Shown in pieces: positions 4,902 through 41,155 of a stretch of DNA of 50,872 nucleotides. The notes under the pieces were generated by a model that saw nothing but the letters and a program-made list of their open reading frames with translations, had not been told where the DNA came from and searched no databases. Each line of letters begins with the position of its first letter. Position 1 is the first letter of the stretch. The translations under genes and the position numbers were made by a program. Source of the DNA: Ferrovibrio sp. (GTDB lineage Bacteria; Pseudomonadota; Alphaproteobacteria; Ferrovibrionales; Ferrovibrionaceae); the NCBI RefSeq assembly GCF_029255545.1, contig NZ_JANLJJ010000018.1, positions 1 to 50,872 of the forward strand, given 5' to 3'.

Positions 4902-5861
4902 CTAGGCTGGCCGCGTTGCCAGCCGGCGATAGACTGGCTGCAGCAGGCCGGGCAGCATGTACATCGGCAGCTGGCCCATGGCGAAGAACACCACCATGTC
5001 GAATACCGCGCGGTCGGCCAGCGACACCATTACCAGGCCCATGTTGCAGTTGCCGGTCAGGATGCCGAGCGTCAGCGCCGCCGGCTGGCCGAGCCGGAAG
5101 AGATGGCGGCCGACACCATAGCCCAGCGCCTGCAGCAGCAGGTTGGCGATGAAGGCCGATGCCGTGGCCAGGATCACATAGCCCGGCTGGGCCATCAGCT
5201 TGGCGGCGACGCCGTCCATGATGGCGATGGCGAACAGCACCAGGGCCACCACCGAGCAGCCATCGATCAGCCGGCTGTTCTCGCGCAGCCACTCGGGCTT
5301 CACGCGCCAGCGCACCAGCAGCGCGCCACCGAAGGCGACGCCCACCATCAGCGCCAGCCGGCCCATGAATTCGACCAGGGACATCTGGATCTCGATGTTG
5401 AGCAGCATCAGCGCCAGCGGCGGCAGGGTGAAGGGCACCAGGGCGGTGGCGATCACCATGACGATCACCGCCAGCGCGGCATCCAGCCCGAGGATCAGCG
5501 CGATCGCCACCGTGCCGGTGATCGGCGGCGCCGCGGCCATCAGCACGATCGCCTCCATCAGTGGGCGCGGCAGGCCGAGCGGCTCAAGCGCGGCGAACAC
5601 CAGCAACGGACAGGCCAGCAGCAGGAAGGCCACCATCGGCAGCACCAGCAGGGGCCGCTTCGCATAGGCATGGAAGGCGCTCCAGTCCAGCCGCATCAGC
5701 GCCATGGTCAGCGGCAGCAGCAGGAACACCACCAGGCCCGGCCGCAGCAGGGCCGCCAGCGGGGGCAGGGCCAGCCCGACCAGCACGCCGCCGAACAGGA
5801 ATTTGGTGGCATGCCGGCCGATGAAATCGAGCGGGCGGCGCAGCAGGGCCTGCAGGATCAT
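4902..5861 (-). CDS. BASS/bile-acid-sodium-symporter-family permease
   Basis: 319 aa made almost wholly of hydrophobic helices, about nine to ten membrane segments. The stretch AAPPITGTVAIALILGLD at the middle and LTGNCNMGLVMVSL near the end match the two crossing, unwound helix regions of the SBF-like (BASS/ACR3) fold, where Asn/Gly residues and the Pro-rich turn bind substrate and ions. Family members carry bile acids, pantothenate, pyruvate or arsenite; which applies here is not visible. It diverges from an arsR-type gene across a 206-bp region that carries two inverted repeats, so it may be under ArsR control together with the CDF gene on the other side. Confidence 0.75.
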   Translation of the reverse strand: MILQALLRRPLDFIGRHATKFLFGGVLVGLALPPLAALLRPGLVVFLLLPLTMALMRLDWSAFHAYAKRPLLVLPMVAFLLLACPLLVFAALEPLGLPRPLMEAIVLMAAAPPITGTVAIALILGLDAALAVIVMVIATALVPFTLPPLALMLLNIEIQMSLVEFMGRLALMVGVAFGGALLVRWRVKPEWLRENSRLIDGCSVVALVLFAIAIMDGVAAKLMAQPGYVILATASAFIANLLLQALGYGVGRHLFRLGQPAALTLGILTGNCNMGLVMVSLADRAVFDMVVFFAMGQLPMYMLPGLLQPVYRRLATRPA

Positions 5862-5988
5862 CGCATGATCCCCCGGTCGTCAGGATGCGGACGGGACAGG
5901 CATGGGAGGGGGCGGAACGGCATGGCGAAACGGACCGGGTTATCCTTATGAAACCGCAGCATAGCCGCGATGCCATAAGCGGGCGAGG

Positions 5989-6009
5989 TGACAATTGTGC
6001 CAATTGTCA
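5989..6009. promoter_or_regulatory. Inverted repeat in the divergent BASS/arsR region
   Basis: TGACAATTG-TGC-CAATTGTCA: perfect nine-base arms with a three-base centre. It lies 128 bp upstream of the BASS permease start and 59 bp upstream of the arsR start. Its sequence differs from the second repeat at 6041-6078, so it may be bound by another protein or act on the permease promoter. Confidence 0.5.
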
Positions 6010-6029
6010 TGATACGGAGGGCAGGCTGG

Positions 6030-6058
6030 TTGACAGGTCAGGAGCAAACATTTAAATA
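6030..6058 (+). promoter_or_regulatory. Predicted promoter of arsR-CDF operon
   Basis: TTGACA at 6030-6035 and TAAATA at 6053-6058 are separated by 17 bp, close to the sigma-70 consensus. The expected transcription start (about 6065-6068) coincides with the arsR ATG at 6068, which implies a leaderless or near-leaderless mRNA; no Shine-Dalgarno could fit between them. The -10 box lies within the inverted repeat at 6041-6078. Confidence 0.6.
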
Positions 6059-6078
6059 CCTGTTTAAATGTTTGCTCC
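6041..6078. promoter_or_regulatory. Perfect 16-bp inverted repeat, probable ArsR operator
   Basis: Left arm GGAGCAAACATTTAAA (6041-6056), centre TACCTG (6057-6062), right arm the exact reverse complement (6063-6078). The repeat spans the predicted -10 box, the transcription start and the arsR start codon (6068-6070). The A/T-rich inner arms with ATTTAAAT-type sequence are typical of ArsR/SmtB-family operators, which are imperfect 12-2-12 repeats; this one is longer and perfect. Binding here would block RNA polymerase directly. Confidence 0.75.
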
Positions 6079-6388
6079 GGAACCCATCCCTGATCACCGC
6101 GCCGATCTGCTGGCCGACATGTTCCGCCTGCTGGGCGATCCGAGCCGGCTGAAGCTGGTGCTGATCCTCTGCCGGGGGCCAAGCGCCGCCTCGGCCGCCG
6201 CCGCCCGGGCCGGCCTGTCGCCGCAACTCGCCAGCCACCATCTGCGCCTGCTGAAAGCGGCTCGGCTGGTGCGGGCGATGCGCAAGGGCCGCGAGATCCA
6301 TTACGACGTTGCCGACGACCATGTGCGCCACATGCTGGCCGACATGGTGGCGCATGTCAGCGAACCGCATCACGATGAGAAAGGCTGA
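6068..6388 (+). CDS. ArsR/SmtB-family transcriptional regulator
   Basis: 106 aa. A compact winged-helix repressor: LADMFRLLGDPSRLKLVLIL (helix 1-2, residues 15-38), recognition region ARAGLSPQLASHHLRLLKAARLV (about 45-70), wing MRKGREIHYDVADDHV (72-88), and a C-terminal dimer helix carrying HMLADMVAHVSEPHHDE. The C-terminal His/Asp-rich end could be the alpha-5 metal site used by zinc sensors such as SmtB and CzrA; the CxC of arsenic sensors is not present. It is followed 4 bp later by a CDF-family metal efflux gene, so it is probably the zinc- or divalent-metal-responsive repressor of that gene. The ATG lies inside its own operator. Confidence 0.88.
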   Translation: MFAPEPIPDHRADLLADMFRLLGDPSRLKLVLILCRGPSAASAAAARAGLSPQLASHHLRLLKAARLVRAMRKGREIHYDVADDHVRHMLADMVAHVSEPHHDEKG

Positions 6389-6392
6389 AGCC

Positions 6393-7049
6393 ATGGGTGC
6401 TTCCTGTTGCCAGCACGACCATCATCAGCATCACCGCCATGAGCACGATCATGGCGCCGGCAGCCCGCGTTTCGCCCTGTGGATCGCCCTGGTGCTGAAT
6501 GCGGCGATGTTCGTGGTCGAGATCGGCGCCGGCCTGGCCGCCGGCTCCACCTCGCTGCTGGCCGATTCCGTCGATTTCCTGGGTGATGCCGTCAATTACG
6601 CGCTGGCGCTGGCGGTTCTTTCGATGGCGCTGGCCTGGCGCGCCCGCGTTGCCCTGCTGAAGGGGATCGCCATGGGCCTGTTTGGCCTGTGGGTAGCGGG
6701 CATGGTGATCCGCCACCTGCTGGCCGGCACAATGCCCGAGGCTTTCACGATGGGCGTGGTCGGCTTTGCCGCCCTGGTGGTGAACGTGACGGTCGCGTTG
6801 CTGCTCTATCGCTTCCGCGCCGGCGACAGCAATATGCGCGCGGTGTGGATCTGCAGCCGCAACGATGCGCTCAGCAACATCGCCGTGCTGCTGGCGGCCA
6901 GCGGCGTTTTCGCCACCGGCACGCCCTGGCCCGATCTGGCCGTCGCCGCCTTCATGGCCGGCCTGGCGCTCTGGGGCTCGGCCCAGGTGCTGCGCCATGC
7001 CCGTGCCGATCTGCGCGCTGCCGCGCCGGCAGCCGGGGCCGCCGACTGA
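6393..7049 (+). CDS. Cation diffusion facilitator (CDF) family metal transporter
   Basis: 218 aa from the ATG at 6393, which is 4 bp after the arsR stop; an in-frame ATG at 6375 overlapping arsR is possible. The N-terminus is a metal-binding tail (MGASCCQHDHHQHHRHEHDH), followed by about six membrane helices. STSLLADSVDFLGDAVNY in helix 2 holds the paired acidic metal ligands, and CSRNDALSNIAVLL in helix 5 holds the second pair, here D and N where many zinc exporters have H and D. CDF proteins export Zn, Co, Cd or similar ions in exchange for protons. It lacks the long C-terminal cytoplasmic dimer domain, which short CDF members also lack. Confidence 0.85.
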   Translation: MGASCCQHDHHQHHRHEHDHGAGSPRFALWIALVLNAAMFVVEIGAGLAAGSTSLLADSVDFLGDAVNYALALAVLSMALAWRARVALLKGIAMGLFGLWVAGMVIRHLLAGTMPEAFTMGVVGFAALVVNVTVALLLYRFRAGDSNMRAVWICSRNDALSNIAVLLAASGVFATGTPWPDLAVAAFMAGLALWGSAQVLRHARADLRAAAPAAGAAD

Positions 7050-10381: not shown

Positions 10382-10400
10382 CTGCCGTGTCTCCTCCTGC

Positions 10401-10428
10401 AAAGAAGTGAAACATGTTTCACTTCTTT
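10401..10428. promoter_or_regulatory. Perfect 28-bp palindrome, probable TetR operator
   Basis: Half-site AAAGAAGTGAAACA (10401-10414) is followed at once by its exact reverse complement (10415-10428). It stands in the 63-bp gap between the beta-barrel gene and the tetR-like gene, 20 bp upstream of the latter's ATG. Length, perfect symmetry and position fit a TetR-family autoregulatory operator. Confidence 0.85.
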
Positions 10429-10444
10429 GGGCAAGCTGAATGAC

Positions 10445-41125: not shown

Positions 41126-41155
41126 AAAAAAGCCCCGCGCAAGCGGGGCTTTTTT
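41126..41155. terminator. Bidirectional terminator between lpxC and the XRE gene
   Basis: AAAAAAGCCCCGC (41126-41138), loop GCAA, GCGGGGCTTTTTT (41143-41155): a 13-bp perfect stem with A-run and T-run at the ends. It can stop lpxC (+) and the convergent XRE gene (-), which ends 25 bp away. Confidence 0.95.

Follow-up and report, generated by a model that had tools for sequence, protein, structure and literature searches.

The 12-2-12 inverted repeats of ArsR/SmtB-family repressors occur upstream of or within the genes that they regulate, and the examples named in the available part of one account precede the start codon, lying 36 nt before nmtA and between the -10 box and the start of ziaA (PMC8790569). 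Leaderless mRNAs, defined by a 5' leader of <5 nt (PMC7563307), are described for the repressor CvkR (PMC9938897) and for arsR and zniR of Cupriavidus metallidurans CH34 (PMC7563307), and a leaderless signal, TANNNT, is reported approximately 10-12 bp before the start codon (PMC3160421). In the Mesorhizobium nickel operon headed by nreA, whose product belongs to the CsoR/RcnR family, the control region comprises 39 bp with an operator from -30 to -12, and 5'-RACE on a reporter fusion in Agrobacterium fabrum placed the mRNA start at the A of the AUG (PMC12724321). All five sources are cited here from excerpts.

The window analyzed here, a 50,872-nt stretch of Ferrovibrio sp. DNA, contains an arsR gene whose start codon lies within its probable operator. 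A perfect 16-bp inverted repeat over the -10 region and the ATG of this gene had been noticed in a preliminary description and was confirmed: the arms are GGAGCAAACATTTAAA (6041-6056) and TTTAAATGTTTGCTCC (6063-6078), separated by the 6-nt spacer TACCTG (6057-6062). The extended operator thus spans 6041-6078, with its dyad centre between 6059 and 6060, and covers the ATG at 6068 of an SmtB/CzrA-like repressor gene. Its layout is that of an ArsR-type 12-2-12 site stretched to 18 positions per side, with a single broken pair (6057/6062). The 22-bp operator core, CATTTAAATACCTGTTTAAATG (6049-6070), ends in three bases that are the start codon, and constitutes the 12-2-12 inverted repeat at a regulated promoter that is characteristic of ArsR/SmtB metalloregulators. 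We infer that the repressor protein binds to this core. A search of the genome for further copies that could form a regulon returned none at ≤3 mismatches, 6049-6070 being the sole place.

No longer perfect inverted repeat with a short spacer is present in the window, where the ranked arms measure 16, 15, 13, 11 and 11 bp. A second perfect dyad, TGACAATTG-TGC-CAATTGTCA (5989-6009), lies in the intergenic region between arsR and a divergent, minus-strand ORF (4902-5861) that is SBF-like at 21.7 bits, under the Pfam cut-off of 24.3; in the related locus L021, AATTTGTCA...TGACAAATT is present upstream of arsR. A 15-bp perfect palindrome, CAAAGAAGTGAAACA/TGTTTCACTTCTTTG (10400-10429), is found just before a minus-strand ORF that looks by eye like a TetR gene (ATG 10381), and the good Shine-Dalgarno sequence between the two, AGGAGGAG, makes it a leadered contrast to arsR. 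The symmetrical repeat AAAAAAGCCCCGC...GCGGGGCTTTTTT at 41126-41155 is probably a two-way terminator.

The preliminary description had also placed a TTGACA-17-TAAATA promoter here, and both hexamers are found where it put them. The -35 element TTGACA (6030-6035, + strand) carries all six consensus bases, and is followed after 17 nt by the candidate -10 element TAAATA (6053-6058, + strand), which carries three of six and lies inside the left arm of the operator; a further 9 nt lead to the ATG (6068-6070). The candidate -10 is weak: its final T is missing, and it is not part of any promoter listed by a sigma-70 scan of 5500-7000, which gave none of 9/12 or better on the + strand. Measured against the TANNNT signal, TAAATA occupies the positions 15 to 10 nt before the ATG, with the TA present and the final T absent. 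The placement of TTGAC relative to the operator and the ATG matches within 1 nt in six related loci (L005, L006, L022, L023, L025 and L043). Two of them, L005 and L022, have TAAATA in the equivalent position, and L006 has it with a 16-nt spacing.

The repressor gene (6068-6388, + strand) encodes 106 amino acids, and the protein scores above the curated cut-offs of NF033788 (69.7 bits, cut-off 55) and of two ArsR-type winged-helix families (PF01022, 32.3, cut-off 22; PF12840, 30.8, cut-off 27). The scores against the NCBIfam equivalogs CmtR (53.7 of 150), TsoR (45.1 of 115) and BigR (28.7 of 155) stay below the cut-offs. Among proteins of solved structure, SmtB and CzrA are the nearest in sequence. 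Residues D83, H85, H96 and E99 of the predicted zinc-type sensor align with D, H, H and E of SmtB chain 1r22_A, which we take to be its metal (zinc) ligands, and the α5 motif D-x-H-x10-H-x2-E/H, presumably a zinc site likewise, is present. By these comparisons, the repressor resembles zinc-sensing SmtB/CzrA more than an arsenic sensor. Arsenic sensing is not favoured, with zero NCBIfam equivalogs over cut-off and SmtB and CzrA as the closest solved relatives. The repressor is present in eight of ten genomes of the window's genus, the window's own counted (E 1e-12), and plasmid relatives were not found at the same E value. Because the TAA at 6053-6055 closes the frame upstream of 6068, and the following in-frame ATG/GTG/TTG (6119) would cut away the first part of the conserved domain, ATG 6068 is, as far as the reading frame tells, the sole usable ATG/GTG/TTG start.

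Four nucleotides past the repressor stop begins a CDF-type cation exporter of 218 amino acids (6393-7049, + strand; ATG 6393), for which the mechanically called ORF opens earlier, at a TTG. The exporter carries the Cation_efflux domain (PF01545, 56.5 bits, cut-off 26.6), and its TIGR01297 score of 67.7 stays below the cut-off of 82.35. The protein is short, with a His-rich N-terminus, and by eye leaves scant room for the usual cytosolic C-terminal domain. A CDF motif lies downstream of arsR in all eight genus genomes that have the repressor. The repressor and the exporter probably form an operon.

For comparison, 134 loci were gathered, 11 of which lack the anchor motif (L003, L004, L013-L019, L075 and L076). 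Named genome contigs contributed 15 of the loci, and seven of these (L013-L019, with actinobacterial titles) are among those without the motif and fall outside the layout test. Two sets of relatives were used: 30 of 48 places were analyzed from one, with two already in the set (L029, L061) and 16 left out, and 30 of 37 from the other, with three already in the set (L034, L065, L068) and four left out. Seventeen of the 123 loci with the anchor motif scored <22 because they have no clear operator or, in L087, because the upstream side is missing; the remaining 106 scored ≥22, a threshold picked after viewing the ranked list. Once identical contexts were dropped, 101 distinct loci, the window included, show a clear operator core near the repressor start. 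Genus labels were assigned by hand, and locus counts are non-independent across related species.

In 55 of these 101 loci the right arm of the operator ends in ATG, and 41 of them have it in frame and open. The layout at arsR is shared by all eight loci of the window's genus, and the in-frame ATG is likewise found in 29/29 loci of a distant genus that belongs to another family (group g73), in 2/2 of g95, 1/2 of g176 and 1/3 of g46. The operator-end ATG is absent or out of frame in 23 of 28 genus-level groups. Five of the 11 groups with an ATG-ended operator use the ATG in frame, which is not far above the chance expectation of one in three; the argument therefore draws on how uniform the layout is within genera and on the distance between the -35 element and the ATG.

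The perfection of the repeat beyond 12-2-12, to which the preliminary description had drawn attention, is real, but it varies among species and is missing in two of the eight genus loci (L023 and L025). Eight consecutive outer pairs extend past the 22-bp core in the window, ten in L022 with different letters, six in L028, five each in L005 and L027, and three in L021. Outer arms also occur in distant loci, with at least 12 bp in L069, 8 bp in L134 and 6 bp in L050 and L107. In the distant relative L069, the dyad round the operator is near-perfect over about 22 positions per arm, and 12/12 outer positions pair. Over the outer 10 bp, the matches of each arm to its own partner exceed those to swapped partners (30 of 20000 permutations with the eight genus loci; 14 of 5040 with the seven non-redundant ones). 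The core shows no covariation beyond shared sequence with the same loci, since 19125 of 20000 permutations give a sum at least as high as the one observed, and no signal with the seven non-redundant loci (4704 of 5040).

The outer arms therefore covary in the window's genus, a pattern that would fit either selection on a longer dyad or template switching. Under the second explanation, which we consider slightly better than an even bet, the outer arms (6041-6048 and 6071-6078) are non-functional and were made during replication, when one arm of an imperfect palindrome was copied onto the other, giving perfection. Template switching has been reported as a source of perfect stems and as a means of their repair (PMC8794818, cited from an excerpt), and the extended arms are sporadic, differ in sequence and are absent in L023 and L025. 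The matching of own partners, on the other hand, fits selection equally well, and L021 retains, by eye, the outer pieces TCATAT/ATATGA despite a duplication. In L021, an 8-bp piece of the operator, ACATTTAA, appears by eye in tandem duplicate just before the arsR ATG. Because the outer extension is patchy, template switching is ranked as more likely than selection, and the absence of the extension from two of eight genus loci indicates that it is dispensable for the basic switch.

TTGAC was sought in the 45 nt before the operator, and is present there in 63 of the 97 loci that entered the start analysis. L030, L059, L060 and L064 were dropped from it, as their first ATG lies outside the stretch available; a downstream start was taken, from the sequence, as the first in-frame ATG past the operator (GTG or TTG if there is no ATG). 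Twelve analyzed loci have TTGAC ≤20 nt from the operator, and in every one of these the distance from the start of TTGAC to the ATG is 36-38 nt. Seven of them have the ATG inside the operator (L001, which is the window's locus, L005, L006, L022, L023, L025 and L043) and five have it 1-7 nt past the operator (L026, L050, L054, L077 and L097). The layout with the ATG inside the operator and 37-38 nt from TTGAC recurs in the window's genus and in one other family. The operator thus shifts its position in these 12 loci while the distance from the -35 element to the ATG stays fixed. The other 51 loci have 43-46 nt (32 loci, 29 of them g73, where the spacing is 43-45 nt) or at least 53 nt (19 loci), and no distance of 39-42 or 47-52 nt was found among the 63.

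The spacer between -35 and -10 elements is typically 16-18 nt, and transcription typically starts 6-8 nt past the -10. With these values, a distance of 36-38 nt corresponds to a leader of approximately 0-3 nt, and one of 43-46 nt to a leader of approximately 7-10 nt. At arsR, the transcription start is predicted at 6065-6068 (+ strand) from the -35/-10 spacing and the fixed TTGAC-to-ATG distance, with a leader of 0-3 nt. The earlier proposal that the mRNA begins at the ATG is thereby supported as to the region, but the start need not be the A of the ATG. Among the sampled loci, the operator-ATG layout would be commonest with a short leader and not with a zero leader. Strict leaderlessness seems not to be invariant even within the window's genus, as the congener L021 has TTGAC 46 nt from the ATG and a predicted leader of about 10 nt. 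Two further loci of the genus, L027 and L028, have TGGAC as the -35 element, by eye 37 nt from the ATG, and are outside the TTGAC counts. L030, in which TTGAC lies 6 nt before the operator, was excluded with an ambiguous start, and its GTG at 57 nt would break the 36-38 nt rule; by eye, two operator-like sites overlap in this locus.

A Shine-Dalgarno-like match of ≥4 occurs in 3 of 41 operator-ATG loci vs 24 of 56 downstream-ATG loci (Fisher p 8e-5), and in 4 of 44 loci with distances ≤46 nt vs 12 of 19 beyond; the template includes a GATC tail, and the match of 5 in L026 is probably false. No match to the template longer than 2 nt precedes 6068, in agreement with the lack of space for a Shine-Dalgarno sequence noted before.

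Taken together, the locus is probably an autorepressed metal-efflux promoter whose operator holds the start codon and whose transcript has a leader of 0-3 nt. In the absence of excess metal, an SmtB/CzrA-like dimer would occupy the core (6049-6070), so that -10 element, transcription start and start codon would all be covered and RNA polymerase could not start. Zinc or a similar ion would bind the repressor and release it from the DNA, as anticipated from the family, and transcription would then proceed from about 6065-6068. The resulting mRNA, with a leader of 0-3 nt and lacking a Shine-Dalgarno sequence, would direct leaderless translation of the repressor from the ATG that terminates the operator, which the reading frame designates as the start codon. 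The exporter would be translated from the same transcript, and the outer 8 bp per side may be an add-on that differs among species. The combination of promoter repression and leaderless translation suggested in the preliminary description is therefore partly supported, in that sequence comparison reveals a recurring layout and a distance of 36-38 nt held in 12 loci.

An alternative that we regard as unlikely, though deserving of attention, retains the operator as described but assigns the mRNA a short or ordinary leader of ≥6 nt, with a start upstream or, for example, at G6062, and with ordinary or Shine-Dalgarno-less initiation. TAAATA is a poor -10 element and the scan of 5500-7000 yielded no + strand promoter of at least 9/12, as this alternative would have it, and the spacings of L021 and g73 predict leaders of 7-10 nt. 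It has to be set against the perfect TTGACA, with the distance to the ATG fixed at 36-38 nt in 12 loci, and against the template matches before 6068, which never exceed 2 nt. In addition, the ATG would end up inside a stem in any transcript begun 5' of 6041.

The burial of the start codon in RNA was analyzed by folding. The RNA of 6030-6130 reaches -36.5 kcal/mol, vs -20.1 for shuffled sequences (z -5.35), and locks the AUG within a 17-pair stem, whereas the RNA of 6065-6130 folds like shuffles (-11.2 kcal/mol, z 0.25). The earlier suggestion that the repeat could fold in RNA and hide the start codon may thus hold for transcripts begun upstream, but is impossible for a transcript from 6065-6068, because the left arm is not transcribed. 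An RNA hairpin as the main control was rejected, as the predicted mRNA is without the left arm and four of eight genus loci have a weak stem.

A more restricted role of the RNA is quite improbable in our estimate: the outer arms would have been selected as a filter that hides the AUG in upstream-born transcripts, and translation would be restricted to mRNAs from the repressor-controlled promoter. The contrast between the two folds and the covariation of the outer arms are consistent with such a role. Against it, four of the eight genus loci form a weak hairpin from the operator and 12 nt per side (-8.6, -6.5, -3.0 and -2.2 kcal/mol), and the hairpin medians are close to one another in the genus (-10.4), in other operator-ATG loci (-10.7) and in the remaining loci (-9.6). 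Moreover, the upstream gene is divergent, and a source of read-through is not evident. That the dyad doubles as a DNA site for the repressor and an RNA lock on the AUG of upstream-born transcripts, in effect a 'promoter-proof' start codon, is improbable. If true, only mRNAs born at the metal-controlled start would be translatable, and selection would have shaped the covarying outer arms of the genus as the RNA half of the device. That the repeat arose by chance, or is a terminator or the site of another protein, is very improbable even though a perfect dyad does not by itself identify its binder, given the 16-bp arm (20 sequences of window length simulated by a first-order Markov model have best arms of 9-12 bp), the similar core at the start of a related gene in 101 distinct loci, the window counted, and the missing T run after the repeat.

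The preferred reading, an autorepressed promoter whose operator holds the start codon, implies that about 40 bp can accommodate a merged repressor site, promoter and start codon, and that the end of an operator can supply a start codon. The constancy of the 36-38 nt between TTGAC and the ATG, irrespective of operator position, would provide a simple sequence test for leaderless autorepressors. Gene callers should be cautioned against relocating starts of this type so as to gain a Shine-Dalgarno sequence. The needs of DNA binding would also shape the first codons of the repressor, a testable overlap of code and control.

A limited search of the open-licence literature returned no description of an ArsR/SmtB operator that supplies the start codon of its own gene. 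The nreA system of Mesorhizobium resembles arsR in that an autoregulated metal-sensor gene heads an efflux operon in an alphaproteobacterium, with a TTG -35 element, a -10 element close to the ATG and a palindromic operator within the promoter (PMC12724321, available part). By our own reading of this excerpt, the nreA layout would imply about 36 nt from the -35 element to the ATG, as at arsR. It differs in the protein family and in the operator, TATCC...GGATA, which sits in the spacer between the -35 and -10 elements and leaves the start codon outside, whereas the arsR operator includes the ATG (PMC12724321). The systems of the SmtB, ZiaR and AzuR type share with arsR an ArsR/SmtB-family repressor and a 12-2-12 repeat close to the transcription start or overlapping it; compared with the operators in the excerpted account, the arsR repeat surpasses them in length and perfection, and holds the ATG of the repressor gene itself (PMC8790569). 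CvkR and the arsR and zniR of C. metallidurans are likewise regulators made from leaderless mRNAs, but the available portions of these reports do not describe an operator with the start codon inside, as found here (PMC9938897, PMC7563307). Each ingredient is thus known by itself, and the Ferrovibrio locus, in merging operator and start codon, represents a compact variation on an established self-repression switch.
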